Shown here one piece after another: positions 9,075 to 49,529 of a stretch of 64,000 nt of DNA. The notes below the pieces were generated by a model. The model searched no databases. It was not told the DNA's origin and saw nothing but the letters and a program-made list of their open reading frames with translations. Source of the stretch: Kordiimonas marina (GTDB taxonomy: Bacteria; Pseudomonadota; Alphaproteobacteria; Sphingomonadales; Kordiimonadaceae); assembly GCF_023006325.1 (NCBI RefSeq), contig NZ_JAINDF010000008.1:62001-126000 (forward strand), read 5' to 3'. A program made the translations under genes and the position numbers. Each line of letters begins with the position of its first letter. Position 1 is the stretch's first letter.

Positions 9075-9103
9075 TTGACAGCGCTGTCTGTTTTCTGTAC
9101 TCA
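9075..9103 (+). promoter_or_regulatory. GACAGCGCTGTC operator overlapping a -35-like element (site 1 of 5)
   Basis: The perfect palindrome GACAGCGCTGTC occupies 9077-9088 and TTGACA occupies 9075-9080; 17 bases later comes TACTCA, a weak -10 candidate. It lies in the 331-base divergent interval 8952-9282, 195 bases before the GH97 start and 126 bases before the NhaC start. The orientation favours the GH97 gene. Apart from this site and the ribosome sites I see nothing else in the interval. Confidence 0.75.
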
Positions 9104-9282
9104 CTTCATTGGAAGGGAAGATGCCGGTAAAGCAGATCATGCAGCGCTGGCAAAAGGTTCACCTGGGTTCGCATCATAATCAGCAAAACGCCCCAAGCGT
9201 TCCATCCGGTGAAGTGTGACATGTGCCATGCCATATAGGCGTGGCGCCGGCTTTATGTTGCCACATTGGGAAGGGGCGCATC

Positions 9283-11349
9283 ATGCGACGCATCGTATCA
9301 TTATTTATAGTCTGTTTCAGCCTGGTGTCTTTTGGCGCCTATGCCGCCGAAACACAGCACGGCCCGGCGACCATCTCGTCCCCGGACCATGTTTTGTCCG
9401 TTTCGCTGACGGCAACGCCAAGCGGCGTGACCTATTCGGTCAGCCGGTTCGGGGAGCCCGTCGTGGATGCCTCACGTCTTGGTCTCCGCTTCAAGAATGC
9501 GCGCGCCCTGTCCACTGGGCTTGAGATCACCGGGGTCAAAACCCGGTCGGTCGATAACACATGGAAACAGCCGTGGGGTGAGCGCGAATATGTGCGTAAC
9601 CACTATAATGAGATGACGGTTGATCTCACCGAAGTGCGGGCGAGCCAGGGCGCGGATAGCGGCCGCCACTTCCAGGTGGTGTTCCGTGTGTACGACGATG
9701 GCCTCGGCTTCCGCTATGTCTTCCCGAAAGACAGCGGCCTCGGCAAGGTTGAGATCACCAAGGAGATGACCGAGTTCAATTTCCATGACGATGCCACCGC
9801 CTGGTGGATCCCGTCGCGCGGCTGGAACCGGTACGAGTATCTCTATCAGAAGACGCCGCTGGATGAAGTGACGATGGCGCACACGCCCTTCACCATCCGC
9901 ACCAAATACGGCCTGCATATCAGCGTGCATGAAGCCGCGCTGGTGAATTATTCCGGCATGTCGCTGCGCCGGGTTTCTTCGCGCCATTTCGTGGCTGACC
10001 TTGCCCCCTGGTCGGACGGCGTGAAGGTAAAGACCAAGGCGCCGTTTGTCACGCCGTGGCGGACCATGCAGATTGCCGATAGCGCCGGCGGGCTGATCAT
10101 GTCCGACCTGATCCTCAACCTCAATGAGCCCAACAAGCTCGGCGATGTCAGTTGGATTGAACCGGGTAAATATGTCGGCGTCTGGTGGGCCATGCACCTG
10201 GGTAAATGGACCTGGGGGTCGGGCCCGCACCACGGTGCCACCACCAAGAACGTCAAAGACTATATCGACTTTGCCGCCAAATACGGCTTCAAGGGCGTGC
10301 TGGTGGAAGGCTGGAACCAAGGCTGGGATGGCGACTGGTTCAACAACGGCAGCAAGTTCAGCTTCACCAAGGCCTACCCGGATTTCGACTTCAAGGAACT
10401 CAGCAAATATGCCGCCAAGCGTGGTGTGCGCATCATCGGTCACCATGAAACCGCAGGGGATGTCTGCAACTATGAAAAGCAGATGAATGCGGCTTTCGCG
10501 CTTGATGAGAAAATGGGCGTCCGTCAGGTTAAGACCGGCTATGTCGCCAATGGCGGTGAGCTGATCCGCTGTGACAAACACGGCAAAATCCATAACGAGT
10601 GGCATGACGGCCAGTTCTCGGCAGAGCATCATATCCGGGTGCTCGAGGCTGCTGCCAAGCATCATGTCTCCATTATCAGTCATGAGCCGATCAAGGATAC
10701 CGGCCTCCGCCGTACCTATCCGAACTGGCTGAGCCGGGAAGGCGCGCGCGGTCAGGAATATAACGCCTGGGGCACGCCGGGGAACCCGCCGTCCCACACA
10801 GCTATCCTGCCGTTCACGCGGATGCTGTCGGGGCCGATGGATTTCACGCCGGGCATCTTCGATCTTCTTTATCCGAAGGCGAAACCCAATAACCGTGTGA
10901 GCACGACGCTGGCGAAGCAGCTTGCACTTTATGTGGTGCTCTACAGCCCGGTCCAGATGGCGGCCGACTTGCCGGAGAATTACCTGAAGCATATGGATGC
11001 CTTCCAGTTCATCCGTGATGTGCCGACCGACTGGGCTGATACGCGCGTGCTGACGGGTGAAATCGGCGAGCAGGTGACGATCGTCCGAAAGGATCGCCAC
11101 AGCGAGGACTGGTACCTCGGCAGCCTGACGGATGAGCATGGCCGCTTCATGAAAGTCTCGCTGGGCTTCCTGACGCCGGGCGTGACCTATGAGGCGCAAA
11201 TCTATGCCGATGGACCGAACGCGCATTGGAAGACCAACCCCTATGACATGACCATCAAGAAAATTAAGGTCACGTCCGCTGACACCTTCCCGATCCGGCT
11301 TGCCGCTGGTGGTGGGATGGCCGTGCGCTTCACGCCGGTGAAAAAATAG
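9283..11349 (+). CDS. Secreted GH97 alpha-glucosidase (inverting, SusB-like)
   Basis: A 688-residue glycoside hydrolase family 97 enzyme with a signal peptide (residues 1 to about 21, ending GAYA), so periplasmic or outer-membrane associated. It should release glucose from maltooligosaccharides. An N-terminal beta-sandwich is followed by a TIM barrel. The glutamates of inverting SusB-type enzymes are present: VEGWN (E342), HHETAG (E389), SHEPIK (E468) and GARGQEYNAW (E492, general acid position, exactly 24 residues after E468 as in SusB). The ATG at 9283 follows GGGAAGGGG; the earlier in-frame ATG at 9223 would spoil the signal peptide. It is preceded by a GACAGCGCTGTC operator shared with glucokinase and the Entner-Doudoroff genes. 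Confidence 0.92.
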   Translation: MRRIVSLFIVCFSLVSFGAYAAETQHGPATISSPDHVLSVSLTATPSGVTYSVSRFGEPVVDASRLGLRFKNARALSTGLEITGVKTRSVDNTWKQPWGEREYVRNHYNEMTVDLTEVRASQGADSGRHFQVVFRVYDDGLGFRYVFPKDSGLGKVEITKEMTEFNFHDDATAWWIPSRGWNRYEYLYQKTPLDEVTMAHTPFTIRTKYGLHISVHEAALVNYSGMSLRRVSSRHFVADLAPWSDGVKVKTKAPFVTPWRTMQIADSAGGLIMSDLILNLNEPNKLGDVSWIEPGKYVGVWWAMHLGKWTWGSGPHHGATTKNVKDYIDFAAKYGFKGVLVEGWNQGWDGDWFNNGSKFSFTKAYPDFDFKELSKYAAKRGVRIIGHHETAGDVCNYEKQMNAAFALDEKMGVRQVKTGYVANGGELIRCDKHGKIHNEWHDGQFSAEHHIRVLEAAAKHHVSIISHEPIKDTGLRRTYPNWLSREGARGQEYNAWGTPGNPPSHTAILPFTRMLSGPMDFTPGIFDLLYPKAKPNNRVSTTLAKQLALYVVLYSPVQMAADLPENYLKHMDAFQFIRDVPTDWADTRVLTGEIGEQVTIVRKDRHSEDWYLGSLTDEHGRFMKVSLGFLTPGVTYEAQIYADGPNAHWKTNPYDMTIKKIKVTSADTFPIRLAAGGGMAVRFTPVKK

Positions 11350-11391
11350 GGTTTGAGCTGCCCAAGGGGGCCTTTCCAGCCCCCTGAAAGA

Positions 11392-11428
11392 GGTCCGCGA
11401 TCCATTGGGTCGTGGGCCTTTTTATTTG
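11392..11428 (+). terminator. Terminator after the GH97 gene
   Basis: GGTCCGCGATCC (11392-11403) pairs with GGGTCGTGGGCC (11407-11418) through 12 bp that include G-U pairs, with a 3-base loop and a TTTTTATTT tail. A second hairpin, AGGGGGC/GCCCCCT, precedes it at about 11365-11385. Confidence 0.75.
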
Positions 11429-11590
11429 TAAGCACCTGAAGAAAATTCGGCATCAGGGTAAGGCGTGGCTTATGCAGGGCTTACCTCAAGGTTCTTGTTT
11501 TCTGTTGTTTTCAGGGGCCTTGAGCCATTATTGTCGGACGCTGTGGCGTGCCGGTGAAAGCCAGCTGGCCCGGAATGCGTAAAAAGCTGC

Positions 11591-11606
11591 ATTTTCTGCG
11601 GAAATA
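11591..11606. promoter_or_regulatory. Candidate Lrp-type operator ATTTTC-N4-GAAAAT (site 1)
   Basis: ATTTTCTGCGGAAATA lies 16 bases before the Lrp-family start codon, next to its ribosome site AGGAAGG. It matches in 15 of 16 dyad-relevant positions the better palindrome before astA (12108-12123). A site here would suit autorepression. Confidence 0.5.
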
Positions 11607-11622
11607 GGAAGGCTGAGCCCCG

Positions 11623-12099
11623 ATGAAGCTGGACCGTATCAACCTCAATATCCTGGCTTGTTTGCAGGAAAATGCCCGCATCACCAATCAGGACCTGGCG
11701 GAAAAGGTCAACCTGTCGCCCAGTGCATGCCTCACACGCACCCGCAGGCTGGAGGCGGAGGGCTATATAACCCGCTACCGCGCTGACGTGGCGTTGGACC
11801 GTGTCGGTCCCGTTTTGTCGGCCTTTATGGAAGTGACGCTCGAAAGCCACTTCCCTAATGATTTCAAGAAGTTTGATGCCTATATCGCTCAGAAGAAGGA
11901 AATCGTTTCGGGCTTCATGCTGGGGGCATCGTTTGATTATCTCCTCCGTGTAGTCGTGCGCGACATGGCCCAGCTCCGCCGCCTGTCCGATGAAATGCTG
12001 GGGGCGGACATTGGCGTGATCAAGCTTCATACCCTCCCGGTTCTCGAAGACTGCAAGGTCTTTTCGGGCTATCCGCTTGAAGCCCTGCTTGCCGACTGA
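11623..12099 (+). CDS. Lrp/AsnC-family transcriptional regulator, adjacent to astAB
   Basis: A 158-residue Lrp/AsnC regulator. The N-terminal winged helix-turn-helix covers about residues 5-60, with ARITNQDLAEKVNLSPSAC and TRTRRLEAEGYI. A C-terminal RAM effector-binding domain follows (FMEVTLES, then FMLGASFDYLLRVVVRDM and a C-terminal strand). Such proteins usually form dimers or octamers that sense amino acids. It lies 133 bases upstream of the arginine succinyltransferase gene on the same strand, which suggests it controls arginine catabolism (inference). A shared dyad, ATTTTC-N4-GAAAAT, stands before both genes. The ATG at 11623 follows AGGAAGG. Confidence 0.93.
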   Translation: MKLDRINLNILACLQENARITNQDLAEKVNLSPSACLTRTRRLEAEGYITRYRADVALDRVGPVLSAFMEVTLESHFPNDFKKFDAYIAQKKEIVSGFMLGASFDYLLRVVVRDMAQLRRLSDEMLGADIGVIKLHTLPVLEDCKVFSGYPLEALLAD

Positions 12100-12107
12100 C
12101 CGTTAAG

Positions 12108-12123
12108 ATTTTCCGCAGAAAAT
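12108..12123. promoter_or_regulatory. Candidate Lrp-type operator ATTTTC-N4-GAAAAT (site 2)
   Basis: ATTTTCCGCAGAAAAT is a perfect 6-4-6 dyad in the AT-rich interval between the Lrp-family gene and astA, 109 bases before the astA start. The same dyad, slightly degenerate, precedes the regulator itself, which is the pattern expected for an autoregulated local activator or repressor. Confidence 0.55.
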
Positions 12124-12232
12124 TCTGTTCATCCCATGAATTAGCTTAGAGATTGCGGTTTGGGCCGCTGTCTTCGGCGATTAATACGCCCTATTTCCGC
12201 CTACACTCCTCCCCTCACGGAGGAGGTGGATT

Positions 12233-13237: not shown

Positions 13238-13250
13238 GGAAAATACGTCC

Positions 13251-14712: not shown

Positions 14713-14741
14713 TTGACAGCGCTGTCTTTTGCCATTAAAGA
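14713..14741 (+). promoter_or_regulatory. GACAGCGCTGTC operator overlapping a -35-like element (site 2 of 5), glucokinase promoter
   Basis: The perfect palindrome GACAGCGCTGTC lies at 14715-14726. TTGACA at 14713-14718 is followed after 17 bases by TAAAGA. It is 126 bases upstream of the glucokinase start and on the correct strand. Confidence 0.78.
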
Positions 14742-14851: not shown

Positions 14852-15811
14852 ATGAGCGGTGATCAAACCTGCATCGTAGCAGATATTGGGGGGACTAACG
14901 GCCGGTTCGGCGTTGCACGCTTTACGGGTGCCGGTAAGCCTGAAATCGACAATATCCGGATATTCTCCTGCGCTGAGCACGATGGTGTGGGCTCCATGCT
15001 CGACCATTTCATCCGCGGGCTTGAGGAGGGCGTGCCGACGGTAGCCAAACTGGCAATTGCCGGGCCGACGTCTGAGCGCGAAGGCATGTTGACCAACCTT
15101 GGCTGGACCGTCGCTGCTACCGAACTTGAAAAAGAGTTCGGCCTCCAACAAGTGAAGCTTCTCAATGATTTCGGCGCGCTTGCCAGGGCGTGCCTCTACC
15201 TCACGGCAGGCGCTGATTATATCAGCCTGAAGGACGGCCAGCCGGACCCGAAAGGTCCGATCTCCGTCATGGGGCCGGGCACGGGCTTCGGCGCAACGGC
15301 GCTTGTACAGTGCGGCGAAGGCTGGGTGACAGTGCCGACCGAAGCGGGCCATATGGCGTTCGCCCCAGCAACCCGGCTTGAGCATGACCTGACCGAGCAT
15401 CTCCGTGCCGAGCTCGGCTATGTCTCGGTGGAAACTTTGCTGTGCGGTGAAGGGCTTGCGCGTATTCACCGCTTTCTGGTCGACTATGGCGGGGGCGGCA
15501 ACCGGGCACTTTCCCCGGCGGAGATTACCAGGCTTGCCGCTGTCGGCGGGGCGCCGGCGTGCACGCGCGCGGTGCAGTTGTTCCTGGCAGTGCTGGGCGG
15601 GGTCGCGGGTGACCTTGTGCTGGCGCATGGCGCCACGGGCGGAGTGTTCCTCGGTGGCGGAATCCTGCCGAAAATCGGCGATATGGTGGCGCCGAGCGAC
15701 CTTCTCCGGCGCTTTGTCGCCAAGGGGCCGATGTCGCACTATCTGGAACGGGTGCCGGTCCGGCTGATCACGGCTAACAATACCGCGCTTATCGGCGCCG
15801 CTGTCGCTTAA
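14852..15811 (+). CDS. glk: Glucokinase (Glk family, non-ROK)
   Basis: A 319-residue cytoplasmic kinase forming glucose 6-phosphate from glucose and ATP (EC 2.7.1.2). The family marks are VADIGGTNGRFGVAR (phosphate 1 loop, about residues 9-23), LLNDFGALARA (catalytic aspartate, near residue 104), GPGTGFGATAL, and the GGGILPKI adenosine-site motif near the C-terminus. A good ribosome site, GGGTGAGAG, precedes the ATG. Although distant from zwf-pgl-edd-eda, it carries the same GACAGCGCTGTC palindrome upstream, which ties it to that regulon. Its TAA overlaps the convergent AidB-like stop codon within the four bases TTAA. Confidence 0.95.
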   Translation: MSGDQTCIVADIGGTNGRFGVARFTGAGKPEIDNIRIFSCAEHDGVGSMLDHFIRGLEEGVPTVAKLAIAGPTSEREGMLTNLGWTVAATELEKEFGLQQVKLLNDFGALARACLYLTAGADYISLKDGQPDPKGPISVMGPGTGFGATALVQCGEGWVTVPTEAGHMAFAPATRLEHDLTEHLRAELGYVSVETLLCGEGLARIHRFLVDYGGGGNRALSPAEITRLAAVGGAPACTRAVQLFLAVLGGVAGDLVLAHGATGGVFLGGGILPKIGDMVAPSDLLRRFVAKGPMSHYLERVPVRLITANNTALIGAAVA

Positions 15812-23488: not shown

Positions 23489-23528
23489 AATATATCGCTA
23501 TTGCAATCGATTGCAAGAACGATATTAT
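23489..23528. promoter_or_regulatory. TTGCAATCGATTGCAA operator within back-to-back promoters
   Basis: A perfect 16-bp palindrome occupies 23501-23516. Each arm also works as a -35 hexamer: on the plus strand TTGCAA (23501-23506), 16 bases, TATTAT (23523-23528) toward the phosphorylase; on the minus strand TTGCAA (23516-23511), 16 bases, TATATT (23494-23489) toward the MFS gene. One repressor dimer would block both promoters. The same palindrome precedes the TonB receptor at 27961. Confidence 0.82.
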
Positions 23529-27799: not shown

Positions 27800-27850
27800 T
27801 TGCAATCGATTGAAATTTGGGTTGCAATCGATTGCATTCGAGCGTAGCCA
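27800..27850. promoter_or_regulatory. Paired CAATCGATTG operators before the TonB receptor
   Basis: TTGCAATCGATTGAAA (27800-27815) and TTGCAATCGATTGCAT (27822-27837) have centres 22 bp apart, about two helical turns. They lie between the divergent LacI gene and TonB receptor. TTGCAA at 27822-27827 with TAGCCA 17 bases later is a promoter candidate toward the receptor. The core matches the operator at 23501-23516. Confidence 0.8.
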
Positions 27851-33652: not shown

Positions 33653-34282
33653 ATGGACCTGAAAACGCTGACCAATATGTTTCCCCTTCATACCCTGATC
33701 ATGGGGGAGCAGTTCGCGCAGGAAAGCATTACAGCCCTCAAGGTCAGAAGCGTTATCCGTTGGTCCGAAACCCTGTTCGTCAATTGCGACTTCTCTGAAG
33801 CGCAGCTGCATATGCTGTTGATGAACGACGTCATCTTTTTCGATTGCGATTTCTCCGGCGCCAACTTCACTGCCTGCGATATCGACGGTTGCGAATTCAT
33901 CAGCTGCAACCTCACATGCAGCAATTTCGAAGGCGCCAGCGTGCGGGACACCAGCTTTACCGATTGTGTGATCGGCGGCATCGCCGGGCCGATGGATATG
34001 TCCAGCTGCATCTTCACCAATGTGCGCTATTCGCGCCATATCCCGATCACGTCGCGCGCACCTTATTATGTGGTCAGCACCGAAAGCAGTCCGCTTTATA
34101 TTTTCCGGACAGGCGATGAGTGGCGCATCCACAGCCAGGGCACGCGGTTGATCGTTCCCGGCATCAGCCTCAAGGAAACCTCCGAGCCCTACCGCAGTAT
34201 CATCCTCGGCCTGTTGCAGCAGGAACTGAGTGCGCGCCGCCCCGACCTCTCCCGCGAAGACCTCGTGGCCGCCGAAAGCTGA
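33653..34282 (+). CDS. Pentapeptide-repeat protein, unknown function
   Basis: A 209-residue soluble protein with no signal peptide. Residues about 40-125 form quasi-repeats of five (CDFSG-ANFTA-CDIDG-CEFIS-CNLTC-SNFEG-ASVRD), with a central Phe/Leu/Ile as in the right-handed quadrilateral beta-helix of pentapeptide proteins. It is rich in cysteine at the first repeat position. A non-repeat C-terminal part (about 130-209) has aromatic strands (YYVVSTESSPLYIFRTGDEW) and a helix. Some family members mimic DNA and protect gyrase, but most have no known role and nothing adjacent identifies this one. It sits alone between a GntR regulator and a sugar symporter. Confidence 0.8.
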   Translation: MDLKTLTNMFPLHTLIMGEQFAQESITALKVRSVIRWSETLFVNCDFSEAQLHMLLMNDVIFFDCDFSGANFTACDIDGCEFISCNLTCSNFEGASVRDTSFTDCVIGGIAGPMDMSSCIFTNVRYSRHIPITSRAPYYVVSTESSPLYIFRTGDEWRIHSQGTRLIVPGISLKETSEPYRSIILGLLQQELSARRPDLSREDLVAAES

Positions 34283-34375: not shown

Positions 34376-34405
34376 TTGACAGCGCTGTCACGCTGCGGCT
34401 ATCGT
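34376..34405 (+). promoter_or_regulatory. GACAGCGCTGTC operator (site 3 of 5), symporter-LacI promoter
   Basis: TGACAGCGCTGTCA is a perfect 14-bp palindrome at 34377-34390, the best of the five copies. It includes the -35-like TTGACA (34376-34381), and TATCGT follows at 34400-34405 after 18 bases. It lies 169 bases upstream of the symporter, whose downstream partner is a LacI gene; feedback on that gene would be autoregulation. Confidence 0.82.
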
Positions 34406-34558: not shown

Positions 34559-36118
34559 ATGTTCAGCACTATCGATTATGTCGTGGTGGGCGTTTATGCC
34601 GTCACGCTGTTTTTACTGGCGCAGTGGGTTAGCCGCGAACGCGCAGGCCACCACAAAGACGCTTCTGATTATTTTCTTGCGGGCAAAGCGCTGCCCTGGT
34701 GGGCCATCGGCGCGTCGCTGATTGCCTCCAATATTTCGGCCGAGCAAATCATCGGCATGTCCGGCTCCGGCTATGTGATCGGGCTTGGCATCGCCTCCTA
34801 TGAATGGATGGCGGCGCTGACGCTGATCCTTGTTGGTAAATATCTGCTGCCGATCTTCCTCAAGCGCAACATCTACACCATGCCCCAGTTCCTGGAGCAA
34901 CGGTACGACCACCGCGTACGTATGGTGATGGCCTTCTTCTGGCTCGGCGTTTATGTGTTCGTGAACCTGACCTCGATCCTGTGGCTCGGGGCGCTTGCCA
35001 TTCAGGCAGTGACCGGGTTCGACCTTGTTTACGGCCTTCTCGCGCTGGCCATCTTTGCGGCCGGCTATTCGCTTTATGGCGGGCTGAAGGCTGTGGCCTT
35101 CACCGATATCGTTCAGGTGGTTCTGCTCTGCTTCGGCGGGTTCGCCATCGCCTATGTGATTTTGCAGGATGTCTCCGGCCACACGGGTGTGTGGAAAGGC
35201 TTCTCCATGCTGATGGAGAAGGCGCCGGAGAAATTCGACATGATCCTGTCGCCTGATAATCCCAACTATAAGGACCTGCCGGGCATTTCGGTGCTGGTGG
35301 GCGGCATGTGGATTATGAACCTGTCCTACTGGGGCTTTAACCAATATATCATCCAGCGCGCGCTCGGCGCCCGCGATATCGGCGAAGCCCAGAAGGGCAT
35401 CGTGTTCGCGGCCTTCCTGAAGCTGGTGATGCCGATCATCGTCGTGCTGCCGGGGATCGCCATGTTCGTGATGAACTCGCACCTCTCCTCGCCGGATGAG
35501 GCCTACCCGACCGCGATGAAAATGCTGCCCGCGGGCCTGATGGGATTGGTGTTCGCAGCGCTCATTGCCGCGATCGTGTCCTCGCTCGGGTCGATGACCA
35601 ACAGTATCTCCACCATCTTCACCATGGATATCTATCCCTCCTTCGTGAAGGCGGACAAACGCAGGGACCCGGTTGTCGTCGGCCGTATCGTCGCCGTGCT
35701 TGCCATGGTCATCGCGCTTGTGACCGCGAAGCCGCTTCTGGGCAACTTCGACCAGGCGTTCCAGTATATTCAGGAATTCACCGGCTTCTTCACACCGGGC
35801 ATCTGCGTCATCTTCTTCATGGGGATGTTCTGGAAGAAAACCACGGCCTCCGGGGCGCTGGCGGCGGCGATCGGGTCGGCCGTCCTGTCCTTCGTCTTCA
35901 AGATGGCGTGGCCGGGGCTTGCCTTCATTGACAGGGTCGGTCTCGTGTTCCTGCTCTGTGTGGCCCTCGCGGTTGTTATCTCACTTGTTGAGGGTGGCAA
36001 GGAACAGCGTGGCGCGGTTGACCTTGAGGACATCAGTTTCAAGACCAGCGGCGGTTTCAACCTTGCCGCAACGGTGGTTGTGCTGATTTTGGCTGCCCTT
36101 TACGCCACTTGGTGGTAA
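34559..36118 (+). CDS. SSS-family sodium/sugar symporter (SGLT-like, probable glucose)
   Basis: A 519-residue inner-membrane symporter with about 14 helices, close in pattern to the vibrio SGLT proteins. It shows DYFLAGKALPWWAIGASLIA (residues about 39-58), SNISAEQIIGMSGSGYVIGL, a YWGFNQYIIQRALGA segment near 260 and AALIAAIVSSLGSMTNSIST near 338-357, which holds sodium-site serines and threonines. It carries the perfect TGACAGCGCTGTCA palindrome upstream. Because the same site precedes glucokinase and the Entner-Doudoroff genes, glucose is the most likely substrate. Glucose made by the GH97 enzyme would enter here. The LacI gene follows after 75 bases containing a stable hairpin. Confidence 0.9.
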   Translation: MFSTIDYVVVGVYAVTLFLLAQWVSRERAGHHKDASDYFLAGKALPWWAIGASLIASNISAEQIIGMSGSGYVIGLGIASYEWMAALTLILVGKYLLPIFLKRNIYTMPQFLEQRYDHRVRMVMAFFWLGVYVFVNLTSILWLGALAIQAVTGFDLVYGLLALAIFAAGYSLYGGLKAVAFTDIVQVVLLCFGGFAIAYVILQDVSGHTGVWKGFSMLMEKAPEKFDMILSPDNPNYKDLPGISVLVGGMWIMNLSYWGFNQYIIQRALGARDIGEAQKGIVFAAFLKLVMPIIVVLPGIAMFVMNSHLSSPDEAYPTAMKMLPAGLMGLVFAALIAAIVSSLGSMTNSISTIFTMDIYPSFVKADKRRDPVVVGRIVAVLAMVIALVTAKPLLGNFDQAFQYIQEFTGFFTPGICVIFFMGMFWKKTTASGALAAAIGSAVLSFVFKMAWPGLAFIDRVGLVFLLCVALAVVISLVEGGKEQRGAVDLEDISFKTSGGFNLAATVVVLILAALYATWW

Positions 36119-36193: not shown

Positions 36194-37216
36194 ATGAAGC
36201 CAGTCACCATTGACGATGTCGCCAAAAAGGCCGGAGTGTCGATCAAGACAGTCTCACGCGTGGTGAACCGCGAGCCCAATGTGCGCGCCGCGACCAAGGA
36301 AAAGGTCGAGGAAGCGATCAAGGAACTGGGTTACCGCCCGAACCCGTCGGCGCGCGGCCTTGCGGGGCGGCGTTCCTATATCGTCGGGCTGCTGTATGAC
36401 AACCCCAGCCCCCAGTATCTGGCCCACCTGCACGCCGGGGTAATGGAAGCCTGTCTGCCGCGCCATTATGGCCTGGCGCTCAGTCATTTCATCAGCACGG
36501 CCCCGGATCTGGCCGACAATGTCCGCGGCTGGCTCCGGCAGGCGCAGATCGACGGTGTCGTGCTCACGCCGCCGCTTTCCGACCATGCCGGGCTTCTGGA
36601 GACGATCAAGGCCATGGGCGTGCCCTCGGTTGTCGTCTCCTCCAAGGGGCCGGGGGATATCCCTTCGGTCGTGATCGATGAGGAAGCCGCAGCTTATCAG
36701 ATGACCAAGCATCTCATTGATGTCGGCCATAAGGACATCGCCTTCATCATCGGCCACCCGGACCACTATGCCAGCGCCCTTCGCCTTGCCGGTTTCCGCC
36801 GGGCGATGAAGGATGCCGGGCTCAGTGTGCCGGACGGTTGGGTGCGCCAGGGCTATTTCGATTTTGCCTCCGGCCGTGAAGCTGCACAGGTGCTGTTGAG
36901 CGGCAGCAAGCGCCCGAGCGCCATTTTCGCCAGTAACGACGATATGGCCGCGGGCGTCCTTTATGAAGCGCATGCGCGCAAGCTGCTGGTCCCGGACGAC
37001 ATTGCCATCGCGGGCTTCGATGATACGCCGCTGTCGCGCCAGGTTTGGCCGGGGCTCACCACCGTGCGCCAGCCGATCCGTTCGATCGGCGAGACGGCGG
37101 GCCAGATCGTGCTGGACGCCATCGCGGCGGGCGGCCTCGCCGCGGCCGACGCGCCGGTCACCATGGCCTTCGAACTGAAGTTCCGCGGCTCTACCGGTGA
37201 AGGCGCCGACCTTTAA
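36194..37216 (+). CDS. LacI-family regulator, probable master of the GACAGCGCTRTC regulon
   Basis: A 340-residue LacI/GalR regulator. The helix-turn-helix is TIDDVAKKAGVSIKTVSRVV (residues 4-23), with the hinge RPNPSARGLAGRR near 50-62, then the periplasmic-binding-like effector domain with RPSAIFASNDDMAAGVL and IAIAGFDDTPLSRQVWPG. It is encoded behind a symporter carrying the best copy of the TGACAGCGCTGTCA palindrome, which makes it the natural reader of all five sites in the window. It differs in recognition-helix residues (SIKTVSR) from the maltose-locus LacI (SEATVSR), consistent with different operators. The inducer is presumably glucose or an early Entner-Doudoroff intermediate (inference). 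Confidence 0.93.
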   Translation: MKPVTIDDVAKKAGVSIKTVSRVVNREPNVRAATKEKVEEAIKELGYRPNPSARGLAGRRSYIVGLLYDNPSPQYLAHLHAGVMEACLPRHYGLALSHFISTAPDLADNVRGWLRQAQIDGVVLTPPLSDHAGLLETIKAMGVPSVVVSSKGPGDIPSVVIDEEAAAYQMTKHLIDVGHKDIAFIIGHPDHYASALRLAGFRRAMKDAGLSVPDGWVRQGYFDFASGREAAQVLLSGSKRPSAIFASNDDMAAGVLYEAHARKLLVPDDIAIAGFDDTPLSRQVWPGLTTVRQPIRSIGETAGQIVLDAIAAGGLAAADAPVTMAFELKFRGSTGEGADL

Positions 37217-41721: not shown

Positions 41722-41749
41722 ATGACAGCGCTATCAATCTAAGTATTCG
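41722..41749 (+). promoter_or_regulatory. GACAGCGCTATC operator (site 4 of 5), PEPC-like gene leader
   Basis: TGACAGCGCTATCA (41723-41736) differs from the perfect palindrome by one base and lies 26 bases before the start codon. ATGACA replaces TTGACA here, and a -10 at 41744 would leave no room for the ribosome site, so a repressor would more probably block an upstream promoter. A TTGACA lies at 41670-41675 but without a clear -10. Confidence 0.7.
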
Positions 41750-41761: not shown

Positions 41762-44578
41762 ATGTTCGACAATGCCGACCAGGGGAAAAGTGAAGCCCGC
41801 CGCCAGCATCTTTCGGCGGCCTATGATATTGCAAGCGGTCTGATGGACGGCAGCAAGACCCTGGCTGGTATTGAGAAGGACGTCAAAGCGCTCGGCAAGC
41901 CGTGTCTTGAGGGGCGGCTGAAACGTCTGTCCGACCAGTGGCAGAGCCTGAGCGTGGCTGAGAATGAAGGCCGGCTGGCCGCGCTTGTCGTGCGCCTGTC
42001 CGAAGGTGCGGACAGGGAGAAGCTGGCTTTTGAAGCTTTTGCCGCCAAGCTGGAAGAGGAGGTCGCGGGCCTCGTCTTCACCGCGCACCCGACCTTTTCC
42101 TTCTCCGACGATGCCTGGACCTATGCCCGCGCTTACCTTGGCGCGCTCGCGGACGGTGAAGCAGCGGCCGAAGCCGCCACGGCCCACGTGCAGGTGGATG
42201 CCGTGCAGCCGACCCGCTCCCCGACCCTGCATGAGGAGCTGGAATATGCCGGGGTCGCGGTCGGCAACACCCGCCGCGCGATCCGCCGCCTTTACGGCAT
42301 CATCTTCGATACCGCCGCCGGGCTGTACCCGGATGAGTACCGTGCCCTCCGTCCGCGGCTTGCCACGGTGGCAAGCTGGGTCGGGTTCGACCTTGATGGC
42401 CGCACCGATATCGATTGGTCGCTCGGGCTTTTGTTCCGCTACCGCTCGGCCCTTGACGGGCTTGACGAATGTCTGGGCCTTGCGCGCAGTCTGAAGTTCG
42501 AAGGCGCGGGTGCGACACGGGAATGGGCGATTGTCCGCGCCGGCTTCGAGGACCTGCGTGACTGTTTCGCCCTTGGGGCCCGCACGCTCGAAGATCACAA
42601 GAATTCGCCCACCGGCCTTGGCAAGCTCAACCAGGTTGCGGTTGAAAATGAAACCCGCAAGGAAGAAGCCGCCAAGCGCATCAATGCCGCGTTCGAAACG
42701 CTGCTGGGTCAGCCGCTCGGGCACGCGGAATGGCGCGGTGCAGCCATGCTCTATAGCGAATGGCGCGCCATCGGCCTTGGCTTCAGCCATATCCACTTCC
42801 GCCTGAATGCCGCCCAGCTGCATAACGCCATCGGCCCAGAAATCCACCTGACCAAGGCCCCGGACCAAAGCGCCATGCGCCGCCACTTCCTGGCTGCGAT
42901 CAGCGAAAAGCTGGATAGTGTGACGGCCAAGACCATCCATTACGGCACGCTGTCGCGTGAGCAGACGACAGCCAAGCGCGTCTTCATGATGGCCGCGCAA
43001 TTCAAGAAACATTTCGATTCCGAAACGAAAATCCGGATGCTGGTGGCGGAATCGGATACGCCCTTCACGCTCCTGACCGCGCTTTATTATGCCCGGCTGT
43101 TCGGCGTGGAGGATTATGTCGAAATCTCACCGCTGTTTGAAACCGCTGTCGGCCTTGAACGCGGCGACCGGGTGATCGCCGAGCTGCTCGATAACCCGCA
43201 CTTTCTTGATTATATCAAGAAACAGGGCCGTTTCTGCCTGCAGCTCGGTTTCTCGGACAGTGGCCGCTATATCGGCCAGCCCGCCGCCACGCTCGCCATC
43301 GAACGCTTCAAGATCAGGCTGGTCCGGCTTTGGAAAGCCCGTGGGCTTGGTGACGTGCAGCTGCTGTTTTTCGACACCCATGGGGAATCGATCGGCCGCG
43401 GCGCTTATCCGTTCGGGCTGAAGAAGCGCTTCCTTTATACCCATTCACCGCGGGTGCGGGAGGCGCTGGCCACACTCGCCCGGCCGGAAAAGCATGAGGT
43501 CAGCTTCCAGGGCGGGGAGGGCTTCCTATGGTTCCTGGCTGAAAGCACGGCGTTTGCAACGCTCACCGATTTTCTTGAGGTCCGGTTCGACAGCTATTCG
43601 ACCGAGGATGACCGTCTCTATGAAGAAAAGGGCTGGTCGCTCGATTTCTTCCTCACGCTCGTCGAATATCAGAACCACCTGACCGACCATAAAGGTTATA
43701 TCCGGCTGATCGACAGCATTGGCCGCAGCCTTCTGTTCCCCACGGGCTCGCGCTCCATGCGGCGGCAGGGGGCAGGGGCGGTGCATCAGCGGCTGGAACG
43801 CATCTCGCAGATACGGGCGATTCCGAACAATGCGGTGCTGCAGCAGCTTGGCTATCTCGCCAACAGTTGCGCCGGGTTCGGCACCGCCATTTCCCGTTCG
43901 CCCGACCAGTTCAACGCTATCCATGCGAGTTCCGACCGGTTGCAGATGGTAACGAGCCTTGCGGTCGCGGCGCTCAACCGCTCCGACGTCGGGGTGATTG
44001 AGGCTTATTCCAAGCTCCTCACGCCCGGTTACTGGCTGGACCGCGCCGACGCCAGCAGTGGCATGGAACACCGTGCCCAGCTCCGCCGTCTGTCGCGCCT
44101 TTTGGAAGGTCTGTTTGAGGCGGATTCGGTCGAGGCCTGTATCCGCAAGCTGCGCCGGGACGCCGGGATGCTGACGGATGCGCTCAGCGAAAACAGCCCG
44201 GCTGCGTTCGACAGTGTCGGGGATGACGACCTGGATGCCCTGCACCAGCTCCGCATCGGGTTGATCCAGTATATTTATCTGATGGCGATGGAAATTCCGC
44301 GTTTCTCCACCCGTTTCGATTTCTCGCTGGAGGAACTGCTGGTCGAACTGCTGCACCTCGAAGTGCCGGATACGGTCGCCCAGCTCCGCAAAATCTTCCC
44401 CGAAGCCCCGCTTGAGAAGGATGATGAGGTCTACGGTGAGGAAACCACCTATGAAGGCGGCTCCACCGCGGGCTATGAGGAAGTGCACCGCAATATCCTC
44501 GACAAGCTCGATCAGGCCTACAGGCTTGTCCTTAACATCAGCGGGCTCATCGCCTTGAAGGCGGGGGCCTTTGGCTAG
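41762..44578 (+). CDS. PEP carboxylase-family protein with altered active-site residues
   Basis: A 938-residue protein of the phosphoenolpyruvate carboxylase family, which forms oxaloacetate from PEP and bicarbonate. TAHPT with H109 matches the catalytic histidine (E. coli H138), and PLFET and the aspartate in FSDSGRYIG (D499) match metal ligands. However, R502 replaces K546, D538 replaces H579 and H540 replaces R581 (E. coli numbering, by motif alignment of FFDTHGESIGRG), and the C-terminus is AFG rather than the usual NTG. The arginine R546 (E. coli R587) is kept. It carries a regulon operator and precedes zwf, so an anaplerotic role fits context, but catalysis is not assured. GGAGAG gives the ribosome site. 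Confidence 0.75.
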   Translation: MFDNADQGKSEARRQHLSAAYDIASGLMDGSKTLAGIEKDVKALGKPCLEGRLKRLSDQWQSLSVAENEGRLAALVVRLSEGADREKLAFEAFAAKLEEEVAGLVFTAHPTFSFSDDAWTYARAYLGALADGEAAAEAATAHVQVDAVQPTRSPTLHEELEYAGVAVGNTRRAIRRLYGIIFDTAAGLYPDEYRALRPRLATVASWVGFDLDGRTDIDWSLGLLFRYRSALDGLDECLGLARSLKFEGAGATREWAIVRAGFEDLRDCFALGARTLEDHKNSPTGLGKLNQVAVENETRKEEAAKRINAAFETLLGQPLGHAEWRGAAMLYSEWRAIGLGFSHIHFRLNAAQLHNAIGPEIHLTKAPDQSAMRRHFLAAISEKLDSVTAKTIHYGTLSREQTTAKRVFMMAAQFKKHFDSETKIRMLVAESDTPFTLLTALYYARLFGVEDYVEISPLFETAVGLERGDRVIAELLDNPHFLDYIKKQGRFCLQLGFSDSGRYIGQPAATLAIERFKIRLVRLWKARGLGDVQLLFFDTHGESIGRGAYPFGLKKRFLYTHSPRVREALATLARPEKHEVSFQGGEGFLWFLAESTAFATLTDFLEVRFDSYSTEDDRLYEEKGWSLDFFLTLVEYQNHLTDHKGYIRLIDSIGRSLLFPTGSRSMRRQGAGAVHQRLERISQIRAIPNNAVLQQLGYLANSCAGFGTAISRSPDQFNAIHASSDRLQMVTSLAVAALNRSDVGVIEAYSKLLTPGYWLDRADASSGMEHRAQLRRLSRLLEGLFEADSVEACIRKLRRDAGMLTDALSENSPAAFDSVGDDDLDALHQLRIGLIQYIYLMAMEIPRFSTRFDFSLEELLVELLHLEVPDTVAQLRKIFPEAPLEKDDEVYGEETTYEGGSTAGYEEVHRNILDKLDQAYRLVLNISGLIALKAGAFG

Positions 44579-44678: not shown

Positions 44679-44707
44679 TTGACAGCGCTATCATTTGTGC
44701 GTAGGGT
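44679..44707 (+). promoter_or_regulatory. GACAGCGCTATC operator (site 5 of 5), zwf promoter
   Basis: GACAGCGCTATC lies at 44681-44692. TTGACA (44679-44684) is followed after 17 bases by TAGGGT (44702-44707), the clearest promoter of the five. The resulting leader would be short, with GGGAG at 44716-44720 as ribosome site before the ATG at 44731. Confidence 0.8.
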
Positions 44708-44730
44708 CCACCGCCTGGGAGTAACTTGGG

Positions 44731-46221
44731 ATGTCTGACATGGTTGAAGCGTTTGACCTGGTAATTTTTGGCGGCACGGGGGACCTGTCCCGCCGCAAGC
44801 TGTTGCCGGCGCTCTTTTCCGGCTTTGCCGCCGGTGTGGTGCCGGAAGGCAGCCGTATTCTGCTGACCTCGCGCTCCGGCCTTGAAGGTCCGGTGGATGC
44901 CTGGCTCAAGCAGATTTTCGCTGAAACCGAGCCCGCGTGCGGTCAGGACGAGAAAGCGCTGAGCGACTTTGCCGCCATGGTGCAGGTCATCGAACTTGGC
45001 CTCGTCGAAGGGGGTAAGGATTGGGACAATCTCACTGCCATCCTGAATGCCGAGCCCGAGCATCCGATCGTCCATTTCCTGGCGATCCCACCGGCGCTGT
45101 TCACCAGCACCTGTGATCTGCTGGGACAATATGGCCTGAATGGCGAGCGCGCCCGCGTCGTGCTTGAAAAGCCGCTCGGCCACAGCCTGAAGTCGGCCCG
45201 CGCGATCAATGAGGATGTCGGCCGGACGTTTGGGGAAGAGCAGACGTTCCGCATCGACCATTATCTCGGCAAGGAAGCCGTCCAGAACCTGCTCGCGCTC
45301 CGCTTCTCCAACATATTGTTCGAGGAACTGTGGAGCGGCCGCACCATCGACCATATCCAGATCACCATTGCCGAAAACCAGGGTGTGAAAGGCCGCGCCG
45401 GTTTCTATGAAGGCACCGGCGCCCTGCGTGACATGGTGCAGAACCACCTGTTGCAGCTTCTCTGCCTCGTGGCGATGGAACCGCCGGCCCGGCTTGAGGC
45501 TGACAGCATCCGCGAGGAAAAGCTCAAGGTGCTCAAATCCCTCAAGCCGCTTGACGGCCAGGAGATCGAGCGCAATGTGGTGCGCGCGCAATATGTTGCA
45601 GGCGCCATGCAGGGCGAGGCCGTTGGCGGCTATGCCGAGGACCTCAACCTTGAGGAGCCCTCGAACACCGAAACCTTCGTGGCGATCAAGGCGCATATCG
45701 AAAACTGGCGCTGGGCTGGCGTGCCTTTCTACCTGCGCACAGGCAAGCGCCTGCCGGACCGGTTCGCTGAAATCGTCATCCAGTTCAAGAATGTGCCGCA
45801 CTCGCCGCATCCGGCCTGGGGCACGAACCTGAGCCCGAACCGCTTCATCATCCGCCTGCAGCCGGAAGACCATCTGGCGCTTCGGATGATGGTGAAGAAC
45901 CATTCGGCCAAGGGCGAGGCGCTCAGGGAAGTCGAGATGAACCTCGATGTGGTTGACGCAGGCGCTGATGCCGTGCGCATCGGCCCGTACCTGCGCCTGA
46001 TCCTCGATACGGTCGCAGGCGATCAGAGCCTGTTTGTCCACCGGGACGAGGTCGAGCACGCCTGGCGCTGGGTCGACCGCATCATCGACCATTGGCAGGA
46101 CAGTGGCGAGCCGCCGCTGCCGTATCCGGCCGGGACGTGGGGGCCTTATGAGGCACATGACCTGATGACCCATGACAAACGTCAGTGGTTCCATGAAATG
46201 GGCAAACGGGTACAAAAATGA
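44731..46221 (+). CDS. zwf: Glucose-6-phosphate dehydrogenase
   Basis: A 496-residue cytoplasmic NAD(P)-dependent enzyme that oxidises glucose 6-phosphate to 6-phosphogluconolactone (EC 1.1.1.49 or 1.1.1.363). The nucleotide-binding loop is FGGTGDLSRRKLLPALF near residues 12-28, and the substrate-binding RIDHYLGKEAVQNLL lies near 172-186. The rest has the usual C-terminal beta-sheet domain including PFYLRTGKRLP. It opens the operon zwf-pgl-edd-eda, and its stop overlaps the pgl start by four bases (ATGA). A GACAGCGCTATC operator covers the promoter. Confidence 0.96.
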   Translation: MSDMVEAFDLVIFGGTGDLSRRKLLPALFSGFAAGVVPEGSRILLTSRSGLEGPVDAWLKQIFAETEPACGQDEKALSDFAAMVQVIELGLVEGGKDWDNLTAILNAEPEHPIVHFLAIPPALFTSTCDLLGQYGLNGERARVVLEKPLGHSLKSARAINEDVGRTFGEEQTFRIDHYLGKEAVQNLLALRFSNILFEELWSGRTIDHIQITIAENQGVKGRAGFYEGTGALRDMVQNHLLQLLCLVAMEPPARLEADSIREEKLKVLKSLKPLDGQEIERNVVRAQYVAGAMQGEAVGGYAEDLNLEEPSNTETFVAIKAHIENWRWAGVPFYLRTGKRLPDRFAEIVIQFKNVPHSPHPAWGTNLSPNRFIIRLQPEDHLALRMMVKNHSAKGEALREVEMNLDVVDAGADAVRIGPYLRLILDTVAGDQSLFVHRDEVEHAWRWVDRIIDHWQDSGEPPLPYPAGTWGPYEAHDLMTHDKRQWFHEMGKRVQK

Positions 46222-46919
46222 CAACGGCCTGGCACTGTTATGACCGCCGCGACATGATGGTCGCGGCCCTGCGCGATGCCACGGTGGCAAAGCTCCGGGA
46301 AAGCCTGACCAAATACGGCCGGGCGGCCTGGGCTGTCTCCGGCGGGTCGACGCCTGCGCCGCTGTTCGAGGCCATGTCGGCCGTGCCGCTCGATTGGGCG
46401 CATGTGGACGTGGCGCTGGTTGACGAACGCTGGGTCGGGACCGACCATCCGCGGTCCAACGAAGCGTTTGTCCGGGGCTGCCTGAAGAAGAACAAGGCCA
46501 AGGATGCGCGCATCATCGGCATGAAAACGCCGCATGAACACGCCGCCGAAGCCGCGGCGACCGTGAATGCCCGCTATGCGCTGATCCCGCGCGCGTTCGA
46601 CAGCGTGCTTTTGGGGCTGGGGCCGGATGGTCACACCGCCTCGCTGTTCCCGGGTGCCGAAGGGCTTGAAAAAGCCTTCGATATGAAAGGCAAGCGCACC
46701 TGCGCGGCCTTGAAGGCGATCAAGAGCGACGTCACCGGCGATGAGGTCGAACGCATGAGCCTGACCGCCCCCGCGATCGCCTGCGCGCACCATGTCGCGC
46801 TGATGATTACGGGTGAAGACAAGAAAAAGGTGCTGCAGGAAGCACTGTCCACGAAGCGCGATTTGCCGGTGGCGCGGCTCGCCGAGGTCGTGGATATTGA
46901 TATTTATTGGGCGCCCTGA
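46218..46919 (+). CDS. pgl: 6-Phosphogluconolactonase
   Basis: A 233-residue enzyme of the NagB/DevB-type lactonase family, hydrolysing 6-phosphogluconolactone to 6-phosphogluconate (EC 3.1.1.31). AVSGGSTPAPLFEAMS near residues 35-50, ALVDERWVG, and LLGLGPDGHTASLFPG near 131-146 are the family motifs. The ATG lies within the last four bases of zwf (ATGA), so translation is coupled. The edd gene follows after 27 bases. Confidence 0.95.
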   Translation: MTTAWHCYDRRDMMVAALRDATVAKLRESLTKYGRAAWAVSGGSTPAPLFEAMSAVPLDWAHVDVALVDERWVGTDHPRSNEAFVRGCLKKNKAKDARIIGMKTPHEHAAEAAATVNARYALIPRAFDSVLLGLGPDGHTASLFPGAEGLEKAFDMKGKRTCAALKAIKSDVTGDEVERMSLTAPAIACAHHVALMITGEDKKKVLQEALSTKRDLPVARLAEVVDIDIYWAP

Positions 46920-46946
46920 CCTTTATGGGGCGCGAGGGAGTATAAG

Positions 46947-48746
46947 ATGACCCATCCGGCGCTTTTGGAAATCACAGCCCGCATCCGGGACCGCTCGAAA
47001 GACAGCCGCGCGGCCTATATGGCGCGGGTTCAGGCGATGCGGGACCAGGGCCGGGCGCGGCCCAGGCTTTCCTGCGGCAATCTCGCCCACGCCATGGCGG
47101 CGTGTTCCGAGGGTGAGAAGGCCAAATATATGAAGGACGGCATGATCAATGTCGCCATCGTCAGCGCCTATAATGACATGCTCTCCGCCCACCAGCCCTA
47201 TCACCGGATGCTGGATGAAGTGAAGGAAGCGGTCCTGAATGCGGGCGCGGTTGCGCAGATGGCGGGCGGTGTGCCAGCCATGTGTGACGGCGTAACCCAA
47301 GGCCAGACCGGTATGGAACTGTCGCTCTTCAGCCGTGACGTGATCGCCATGGCGACCGCAATCGCCATGAGCCATAACGTGTTTGACGCAGGTCTCCTGT
47401 TCGGCATCTGCGACAAGATCGTGCCGGGGCTTCTGATCGGCGCGCTTTCCTTCGGTCACCTGCCGTTCGTGTTCGTGCCTGCGGGGCCGATGCCGACCGG
47501 CATTTCCAACTCGGAAAAAGCCAAGGTGCGCCAGCTCTATGCTGAAGGCAAAGTCGGCAAGAATGAGCTGCTCGAAAGCGAATCCCGCGCCTACCACAGC
47601 CCGGGCACCTGCACCTTCTATGGCACCGCCAACTCCAACCAGATGATGCTGGAGATGATGGGCCTCCAGCTGCCGGGCTCAAGCTTCGTGAACCCGTCCG
47701 ACCCGCTCCGCCGTCCGCTCGATGATGCGGCGGCAGAACGCGTGGTCAAGCTGGCGGACAGTGAAAACCCGCTTGGCATCGGCGACATGGTCGATGTCGA
47801 AACCATCGTCAACGGCATGGTTGGCTTGCTGGCGACTGGCGGCTCCACCAACCACACGCTCCATATCGTTGCGATCGCGGCGGCTGCGGGCATCAAGGTG
47901 ACGTGGCAGGATTTTTCCGACCTTTCGAACATCATCCCGCTCTTGACCCGGGTTTACCCGAACGGCACCGCGGATGTGAACGCCTTCCAGCGCGCGGGCG
48001 GCACGCCGTTCGTGATCCGCGAACTGCTCAGCGAAGGCCTTCTGCATGAAGATGTCGACACCATCGTCGGTCATGGCCTCGCGCCTTTCGGCACCATGCC
48101 GGGGCTGAAGGACGGCAAGCTGGCGTGGCACGCCTCGGCCGATGTGCCGGGTGACGATATGATCATCCGCACCATCGACCGGCCGTTCCAGGGCCATGGC
48201 GGCCTCGCCGTGCTGCAGGGCGAGCTGGGCGAAGCGGTGATCAAGACCTCCGCGGTCAAGCCCGAGCATCAGGTGGTCGAAGCGCCCGCCATCGTGTTCG
48301 AGGATCAGGATGACCTGCTGACCGCCTACAAGGCCGGTGAGCTTGAGAAGGATTTCATCGCCGTCGTCCGCTTCCAGGGGCCGAAAGCCAACGGCATGCC
48401 GGAGCTGCATAAGCTGACGCCGTCCCTTGGTGTGCTGCAGGACAAGGGCTTCCACGTCGCCCTGGTGACCGACGGCCGCATGTCCGGCGCGTCCGGCAAG
48501 GTGCCCGCGGCGATCCATGTCACGCCGGAAGCGGCGAACGGTGGCCCGATCGCACGGGTGAAAACCGGGGACATGATCCGGCTGGATGCCGAGGCGGGCA
48601 CGCTGACGCTCATGGTGGACGCGGACGAATTCGCGGCCCGCACACCCGCGACCGCGCCGGTGGTGGCAGACACCTTCGGCCGCAACCTGTTCGCGCCCAT
48701 GCGCGCGCTGGTCGGTCCCGCGGGCGAAGGCGGCACTGTATTTTAA
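46947..48746 (+). CDS. edd: 6-Phosphogluconate dehydratase
   Basis: A 599-residue iron-sulfur dehydratase of the IlvD/Edd family; it makes 2-keto-3-deoxy-6-phosphogluconate from 6-phosphogluconate (EC 4.2.1.12). Motifs include [20 protein letters not shown] (residues about 111-130), [14 protein letters not shown] near 151-164, [20 protein letters not shown] near 216-235 and SDGRMSG-type [20 protein letters not shown] near the C-terminus. Cysteines in these segments ligate the 4Fe-4S cluster, which makes the enzyme oxygen-sensitive. A palindromic repeat (48753-48849) separates it from eda. Confidence 0.96.
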
Positions 48747-48752
48747 TATTGG

Positions 48753-48849
48753 TCGTCACCCGCCGACTTGATCGGCGGGTCCAGGAACACGCAAGCCCAT
48801 ATGTCATGAAGGTGTTCCTAGATTCGCCGGTTAAACCGGCGAATGACGA
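48753..48849. repeat. Dispersed inverted-pair palindromic repeat, copy C, inside the Entner-Doudoroff operon
   Basis: The left unit begins TCGTCACCCGCCGACTTGAT at 48753 and the right unit ends CGGCGAATGACGA at 48849. Its stem is more GC-rich than in copies A and B, with compensating changes (ACCCGCC/GGCGGGT). It lies between edd and eda, 6 bases after the edd stop and 44 bases before the eda start. Confidence 0.87.
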
Positions 48850-48893
48850 GGATAGAGATTTGTTCCGTTAGCGGGATTTTGAGAGAAGAGAAC

Positions 48894-49529
48894 ATGGTCA
48901 CAGTTGAACAGGTAATGAAGATGGGCCCGGTCATTCCGGTGCTGGCGTTCAAAAGTGCGGAAGAAGCCGTCGGCGTATGCCGCGCGCTTTATGAAGCCGG
49001 TATCCGGGTGTTTGAAATCACCCTCCGGCACGAAAGTGCGCTCGATGCCATCAAGGCGGTGAAGGCGGACCTGCCGGACGATGCCATCATCGGCGCGGGC
49101 ACCGTGCTGAGCCCCGAGCTTGCCAAAGCCGCCGTCGATGCGGGCTGTGCCTTCGGGGTGAGCCCCGGCCTGACCCCGGCGCTGGCCGAGGCCGTCAAGG
49201 CGCTCAACTTCCCGTTCCTGCCCGGTGTGGCGACCCTCAGCGAAGCCATGCAGGCGCGCGAATGGGGCTTCACCGCGCTCAAATTCTTCCCGGCCTCGGT
49301 CTCCGGCGGTCCGGCGTTCCTCAAGGCGGTTCACAGCGTGCTGCCGGACTTGATCTTCTGCCCGACCGGCGGCATCAAGGCAGGCACGGCGGCCGACTAC
49401 CGCGCGGTCCCGAGTGTGGTGACGGTCGGCGGTTCGTGGCTTACCCCGCGCGGCAGCGATGGCAGCATCGACCTGGCGACCGTGAAGGAACTGGCCGAAG
49501 AAGCGCTTTCGGCCTCTGACGACCGCTGA
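48894..49529 (+). CDS. eda: KDPG aldolase (2-dehydro-3-deoxyphosphogluconate aldolase)
   Basis: A 211-residue class I aldolase that cleaves 2-keto-3-deoxy-6-phosphogluconate to pyruvate and glyceraldehyde 3-phosphate (EC 4.1.2.14), ending the Entner-Doudoroff route. The Schiff-base lysine is K130 in TALKFFPAS, the catalytic glutamate is E41 in FEITLR, and IGAGTVLS and PTGGIKAG form the phosphate-binding loops. The ATG at 48894 follows GAGAGAAGAG, while the in-frame extension to 48843 would run through the repeat. Transcription probably continues from zwf-pgl-edd through the repeat. Confidence 0.96.
   Translation: MVTVEQVMKMGPVIPVLAFKSAEEAVGVCRALYEAGIRVFEITLRHESALDAIKAVKADLPDDAIIGAGTVLSPELAKAAVDAGCAFGVSPGLTPALAEAVKALNFPFLPGVATLSEAMQAREWGFTALKFFPASVSGGPAFLKAVHSVLPDLIFCPTGGIKAGTAADYRAVPSVVTVGGSWLTPRGSDGSIDLATVKELAEEALSASDDR

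Follow-up and report, generated by a model that had tools for sequence, protein, structure and literature searches.

Our results suggest that five copies of a short palindrome, GACAGCGCTRTC, in a stretch of Kordiimonas marina DNA are operators of a single LacI-family regulator that runs a glucose and Entner-Doudoroff regulon. The stretch is 64,000 nucleotides long (contig NZ_JAINDF010000008.1, positions 62,001 to 126,000) and is called the window below. The proposed regulator, LacI-A, is encoded within it (36194-37216). Judging from sequence, we give this reading a probability of about 0.86. A preliminary description of the window had put the palindromes upstream of a GH97 glucosidase gene, a glucokinase gene, a sodium/sugar symporter gene with a lacI gene, a phosphoenolpyruvate (PEP) carboxylase-like (PEPC-like) gene and the cluster zwf-pgl-edd-eda. 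All five placements hold, and so do the gene families. The word occurs at 9077, 14715, 34378, 41724 and 44681; the predicted operators, in their 14-base form, and the genes behind them are as follows.

9076..9089, + strand: predicted operator TGACAGCGCTGTCT, 133 bp 5' of the first GH97 start codon
9223..11349, + strand: GH97 alpha-glucosidase (Pfam GH97; nearest solved structure 5hq4)
14714..14727, + strand: predicted operator TGACAGCGCTGTCT, 5' of glk; TTGACA-N17-TAAAGA
14852..15811, + strand: glucokinase gene glk (PF02685)
34377..34390, + strand: predicted operator, the perfect TGACAGCGCTGTCA, 5' of the SSF-lacI pair
34559..36118, + strand: Na+/glucose symporter, vSGLT-like, SSF family (profile and structure-homologue matches)
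36194..37216, + strand: LacI-A, LacI-family regulator and proposed binder (PF00356, PF13377; homologues adjoin the same site in congeners)
41723..41736, + strand: predicted operator TGACAGCGCTATCA, 5' of the PEPC-like gene; the preceding base is A, hence no TTGACA
41762..44578, + strand: PEPC-like protein (PEPC fold, altered catalytic motifs)
44680..44693, + strand: predicted operator TGACAGCGCTATCA, 5' of zwf; TTGACA-N17-TAGGGT
44731..46221, + strand: zwf, glucose-6-phosphate dehydrogenase (TIGR00871, above cut-off)
46218..46919, + strand: pgl, 6-phosphogluconolactonase (TIGR01198, above cut-off)
46947..48746, + strand: edd, phosphogluconate dehydratase (TIGR01196, above cut-off)
48843..49529, + strand: eda, 2-keto-3-deoxy-6-phosphogluconate aldolase (TIGR01182, above cut-off)

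Three of the five sites are perfect 12-bp palindromes and the other two read GACAGCGCTATC. Over 14 bases they read TGACAGCGCTGTC(A/T) or TGACAGCGCTATCA, and the underlying form, TGACAGCGCTGTCA, is an even palindrome with CG at its centre, which is the type of operator used by the LacI family. Chance is ruled out as the origin of the five sites: 100 dinucleotide-preserving shuffles of the window yielded a mean of 0.01 sites and never more than one, and the reversed pattern has a single match in the whole genome. Program-made open reading frames (ORFs) on the opposite strand cover three of the sites. Two of these frames are antisense to the PEPC-like gene and zwf. The third is the longest ORF of a Na+/H+ antiporter gene (7413-9140), which covers the first site only if its first ATG is used. 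A start at the in-frame GTG at 8951, behind GGGGGAG, is likelier, and the first site would then be intergenic.

Four of the five sites contain TTGACA and are followed by a -10-like hexamer on the gene's strand, as previously described (TACTCA, TAAAGA and TAGGGT after 17 bases, TATCGT after 18); the site of the PEPC-like gene reads ATGACA. This arrangement is kept in relatives. Among the site-bearing upstream regions of congeners, TTGACA is present in all 13 glk sites and TA follows exactly 17 bases later in all 13, with no other spacing between 10 and 25 reaching more than 2 of 13. The glk region of G009, which has no site, is outside this count (G and L numbers are our handles for genomes and loci). 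For zwf the corresponding figures are 7 of 8 for TTGACA and 7 of 8 for TA at 17, with at most 2 of 8 at any other spacing. Hence the geometry at glk and zwf supports occlusion of the -35 element, as would be expected of a repressor.

A concentration of hits before glucose genes had been proposed as a check, and over the 3,684,098 bases of the genome GACAGCGCTRTC occurs at eight places, seven of them upstream of genes and one inside an ORF of 472 amino acids. The three places beyond the window are that ORF, the region 5' of a GH13 alpha-amylase gene and the intergenic region between pckA and chvI. The last of these is shared by pckA, which is on the minus strand and codes for an ATP-type PEP carboxykinase, and a divergent response regulator/sensor kinase pair, whose domains were found and which we take to be of the ChvI/ChvG type. 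If the pckA side is the target, then all seven upstream places fit sugar or PEP metabolism. Over 59 genomes, K. marina included, the word has 221 matches versus 28 for the reversed pattern (both strands, so palindromes count twice). With one mismatch allowed there are five further near-sites in K. marina. One (L021 1501-1514) lies 5' of a class I fructose-bisphosphate aldolase gene and is found at the same position in G001; it is absent in G008, G012 and G016, and the aldolase is a weak candidate target. The other four lie in the gap between a GntR/aminotransferase-type gene and a COX2-type gene, 5' of a PhoD-type gene, 5' of a MerR-type gene and within an ORF. Near-sites with two mismatches were inspected at three loci only. 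The genes pykA, ppdK and sucABCD are absent among the exact-site targets in K. marina, although no search by name was made. In G008, an exact site lies within the 3' end of a 701-amino-acid gene (glycyl-tRNA synthetase by eye), 376 bases before ppdK.

Conservation was assessed by scoring up to 400 bases of upstream DNA per target gene for the best match to TGACAGCGCTGTCA. A site with at most one mismatch precedes glk in 13 of the 15 congeneric genomes with a glk match. The two without are G004, where only 155 bases separate the gene from the contig end, and G009, which has no close LacI-A homologue. For zwf, a site is present in 8 of 16 congeners. In seven of the eight that have none (G003, G006, G008, G010, G013, G014 and G015; the eighth is G009), lacI and the PEPC-like gene come first and zwf follows them in the same orientation; the site is found 5' of lacI, except in G008, where it separates lacI from the PEPC-like gene. 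The gene pckA carries a site with at most two mismatches in 10 of the 17 congeners that have the full upstream DNA (G005 is truncated there). In each site-bearing congeneric region, none of 300 upstream regions resampled with a first-order Markov model reached the observed score. A site also precedes GH97 in G005, G007 and G011, and in Kordiimonas sp. 176-3Z (L097) glk, site, lacI, the PEPC-like gene, zwf, pgl, edd and eda form a single cluster. In G015 a site lies between the divergent genes glgC and glycogen phosphorylase (L191, around 3993). Hence the regulon may reach glycogen in this one congener.

The gene 36194-37216 had been suggested as the source of the repressor, and our comparisons favor it as the likely regulator. 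Its product has an N-terminal helix-turn-helix and a periplasmic-binding-protein-like sugar domain, both above cut-off (PF00356, 72.7 bits; PF13377, 121.7 bits). The LacI-A gene of congeners has the site right beside it, often in the gap between lacI and a divergent glk. Of the 59 genomes, 39 have a LacI-A homologue (E value of 1e-40 or better, paralogs included), and 36 of these have the exact site, versus 6 of the 20 others (Fisher p = 1.3e-6, uncorrected for relatedness). In G017, which is 100% complete, LacI-A, zwf, glk and PEPC have no match, there is no exact site, and pckA is kept; G002 shows the same absences in a genome that is 76% complete. The closest relatives of LacI-A among the best 80 of 582 loci are from the metagenome-assembled genome Alphaproteobacteria bacterium M2405 (73% identity) and Kordiimonas gwangyangensis (66%), whose LacI is identical to that of G011.

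Could another LacI protein, encoded near the window or on another contig, bind the palindrome instead? The genome holds five PF00356 matches, one of them in a frame that looks TetR-like by eye, which leaves three LacI proteins besides LacI-A. These three have a recognition helix of a different type (SEATVSRSL-like). A different palindrome, TGCAAYCGRTTGCA, occurs near LacI-B and also by the TonB-receptor gene that neighbors LacI-C. Immediately 5' of LacI-C itself no palindrome was found, and near LacI-D there is only a weak, unrelated one. LacI-B, -C and -D are thus unlikely binders. Moreover, in at least ten regions from relatives GACAGCGCTRTC stands next to a LacI-A homologue along with glk or zwf, and we consider binding by another LacI highly improbable. 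Still less credit can be given to the idea of a promoter element in common use, or of a chance repeat, that no regulator reads. The word does contain TTGACA, the -35 consensus. However, the 14-bp palindrome extends beyond the -35, ATGACA is the reading in most pckA copies and in that of the PEPC-like gene, the word has eight places in 3.68 Mb, seven of them upstream of genes, and the position is kept at glk, zwf and pckA of relatives.

A further question is whether LacI-A is only a repressor. The base that precedes TGACA in the ten pckA sites is A eight times and T twice. The site begins 37 bases before a conserved TTGATT in nine of the ten genomes measured. In the tenth, G001, the site is doubled (L207 3884-3916) with copies 21 bases, or about two helical turns, apart, and the second tandem copy again lies at 37 (58 minus the 21-base step). 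The TTGATT stands out as conserved amid a variable region, also in most genomes without a site, and we infer that it is the -35 element. The centre of the site would then lie about 30 bases upstream of the -35, where it could not occlude this element and where it would suit contact with the polymerase. Such contact from an upstream site is the mode of class I activators. Hence the fixed distance between site and core promoter suggests activation at pckA, which we regard as somewhat better than an even bet, and the pure repressor of the preliminary description is not supported as a whole account. The alternative is that LacI-A only represses, and that the pckA site does not activate or serves the divergent chvI; it differs from our reading at the pckA step alone. 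In its favor, the window sites are repressor-like in four cases out of five, pckA and chvI are divergent and the site between them could act on chvI, and 7 of 17 congeners have no pckA site. Against this alternative stand the spacing itself, the aldolase near-site shared with G001, and the functional analogue CceR, whose deletion lowers PckA and Fba (PMC11323563, from the available part of the paper). On balance a purely repressing LacI-A seems unlikely, and a dual regulator in the style of CceR and PckR is probably the better description of these site positions.

Under the reading that we prefer, with LacI-A acting on both kinds of promoter, the system would work as follows. Without sugar, LacI-A bound to TGACAGCGCTGTCA would cover the -35 element at glk, zwf-pgl-edd-eda, the symporter-lacI pair and GH97 and block their transcription. 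An inducer, possibly glucose or an early Entner-Doudoroff intermediate, would release LacI-A. Glucan trimming, Na+/glucose uptake, phosphorylation, the Entner-Doudoroff pathway and the PEPC-like enzyme would then be induced together. At pckA, the binding position of LacI-A would be 5' of the conserved core promoter, from where it would probably activate gluconeogenesis.

Several observations weigh against this reading. Seven of the 17 congeners lack the pckA site, and the site of the PEPC-like gene does not overlap a -35 element. Six genomes free of LacI-A carry the exact site, and three with LacI-A carry none. Among the 83 sites of the 60 regions fetched from relatives, 23 are covered by a longest ORF. 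Some of these ORFs have over-long starts (three glk), and other internal sites lack the outer T..A pair or lie in apparently real genes, among them GH97-type frames of G012 and G016. The outer T..A pair is present in 56 sites, of which 12 are inside ORFs. The table of these regions covers G001, G003-G008, G010-G016, G018-G020, G022-G024 and G027; the listed places in G021, G025, G028, G037, G040, G043, G046, G048 and G051 lie outside the fetched regions, and the places in G032, G038, G039, G044, G045, G049, G050, G053, G054, G057 and G058 lie outside the listing. Finally, LacI paralogs that are 41-42% identical to LacI-A stand beside the same word in G001, G005 and G011 (L211, L216, L239), in G001 next to a GH3-type beta-glucosidase gene. 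Hence, the word is not exclusive to one protein across the genus, and cross-talk between these paralogs and the glucose regulon is possible in the three genomes. K. marina has no such paralog at an E value of 1e-40.

The regulon is also smaller than had been proposed. The proposal placed the whole route from glucan to pyruvate under one repressor. A single LacI regulon is supported for the Entner-Doudoroff operon, glucose uptake and phosphorylation, the PEPC-like gene and the alpha-glucosidase, but not for all glucan steps. TonB-receptor, GH65/MFS and LacI-B genes (near 1.8, 23.5 and 27.8 kb) are preceded by TGCAAYCGRTTGCA, close to other lacI genes. This second palindrome occurs at 1789-1826, 23502-23515 and 27801-27836, in two exact copies and three with one mismatch. 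Perhaps these genes form a separate alpha-glucoside regulon.

Within the glucose regulon, the GH97 enzyme appears to be an alpha-glucosidase: its protein matches the alpha-glucosidase 5hq4 with 870 bits and GH97 alpha-galactosidases with about 200. The best NCBIfam match, an alpha-galactosidase family under its cut-off, is ruled out by this closer match. A pentapeptide-repeat protein is encoded at 33653-34282, immediately 5' of the symporter operon.

The PEPC-like gene was correctly recognized as PEPC-like; its product has the full PEPC fold, and by its motifs it is not a canonical PEPC. Instead of GYSDSxKD and FHGRGGxxGRGG it has GFSDSGRYIGQ and FDTHGESIGRGA, and it matches PF00311 with 46.8 bits versus 955 and 913 bits for canonical PEPCs. 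A whole-genome search found it to be the sole PEPC homologue in K. marina. The altered motifs are largely conserved in its homologues, mostly as TAHPTF, GFSD-S/A-GR-Y/F and F-D/N-THGES-GRG. Among 29 genomes, 21 of the 22 with zwf have exactly one of the PEPC-like protein (18), canonical PEPC (1) and pyruvate carboxylase (2). None of the seven genomes without zwf has a PEPC homologue, and one has pyruvate carboxylase. One could tentatively argue, with the odds slightly against it, that the PEPC-like protein is a separate branch of the PEPC superfamily with its own active site, which would be anaplerotic on sugar in Kordiimonas and its relatives in place of PEPC or pyruvate carboxylase and would be induced through the glucose operators.

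How does LacI-A relate to known regulators? Three non-orthologous LacI-family regulons of central carbon metabolism have been described in Alphaproteobacteria, those of PckR, GapR (CceR) and GluR (Ravcheev et al. 2014, PMC4052901; here and below, statements from published papers reflect the parts available). GluR of Caulobacter (CC2053), with glucose as the proposed effector, is the most similar. It is a LacI-family protein with zwf-pgl-edd-glk as targets, a regulator gene beside these targets and the half-site TGACA (PMC4052901). Likewise, the predicted sites at zwf and glk in K. marina and congeners would place zwf-pgl-edd and glk under LacI-A. In Caulobacter loci among the best 80 of 582 (e.g., L096), zwf-pgl-edd-glk is followed by a lacI gene whose product is 47-52% identical to LacI-A and which, from its context, we identify as GluR. 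There are also differences. By eye, the Caulobacter sites read TGACAACGTTGTCA at zwf and TGACAAGGTTGTCA or close variants at lacI, and the zwf site, ATGACAACGTTGTCAT, differs from the Kordiimonas operator in its inner pair; TGACAGCGCTGTC is found in Caulobacter as well, just downstream of lacI in L096, L100 and L101. The predicted targets in Kordiimonas include the symporter, GH97, the PEPC-like gene and pckA.

According to the available text of PMC4052901, other Alphaproteobacteria yielded no GluR orthologs, and we do not file LacI-A as one. An exclusive Kordiimonas-Caulobacter GluR clade (28 versus 78 rows) was rejected by the approximately unbiased (AU) test (p-AU 0.0005), also when the Hellea group was added (p-AU 0.0008), and with it strict GluR orthology, a result to be counted with the contrary observations above. 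This was a quick tree of 106 rows (105 different), on which the Kordiimonas and Caulobacter GluR proteins stand apart; a cut locus (L154) and two distant rows were excluded. Of its 102 forks 27 are open, and some branches are long; the 18 Kordiimonas rows occupy one side of a branch whose support is only 39. In Hellea, Robiginitomaculum and Algimonas, a LacI gene adjoins zwf-pgl-edd-glk with TGACAGCGCTGTCA in between. LacI-A would belong to the wider subfamily of GluR and work like GluR, CceR or PckR.

The published descriptions of CceR/GapR (Rhodobacterales) and PckR (Rhizobiales) also resemble LacI-A in that both are LacI-family regulators of central carbon metabolism. For PckR, the prediction is that it represses Entner-Doudoroff genes but activates pckA (PMC4052901), and Paracoccus deleted for CceR has less PckA and Fba and more Glk, Zwf, Pgl, Edd and Eda (PMC11323563). 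The site geometry in Kordiimonas would fit such dual control. PMC4052901 treats these regulators, and GluR, as mutually non-orthologous and gives them different motifs. BglR1-3 of Caulobacterales are GluR paralogs (PMC4052901), reminiscent of the 42%-identical paralog beside the GH3 beta-glucosidase gene and the same word in G001; unlike LacI-A, their targets are beta-glucoside genes and not the Entner-Doudoroff pathway. GntR of Pseudomonas plecoglossicida is another LacI-family protein, with GACAGCGCTRTC in two of three footprints, but it controls the gluconate genes gntR, gnuK and gntP in a different group of organisms (PMC12195362). A literature search returned no report on this regulon in Kordiimonas among the matches listed. 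Overall, the regulon appears to be real, conserved, probably dual-acting and ordinary in kind, and, as far as the searched literature shows, new in this lineage.

If LacI-A acts as proposed, then Kordiimonas and its family would join the three alphaproteobacterial groups in which LacI-family proteins are master regulators of carbon metabolism (PMC4052901). The comparison also shows joint loss of regulator, operator and targets. The fixed spacing at pckA offers a simple test of dual control. An uncharacterized PEPC-like enzyme is placed under predicted glucose control, which gives it a physiological role that can be tested.

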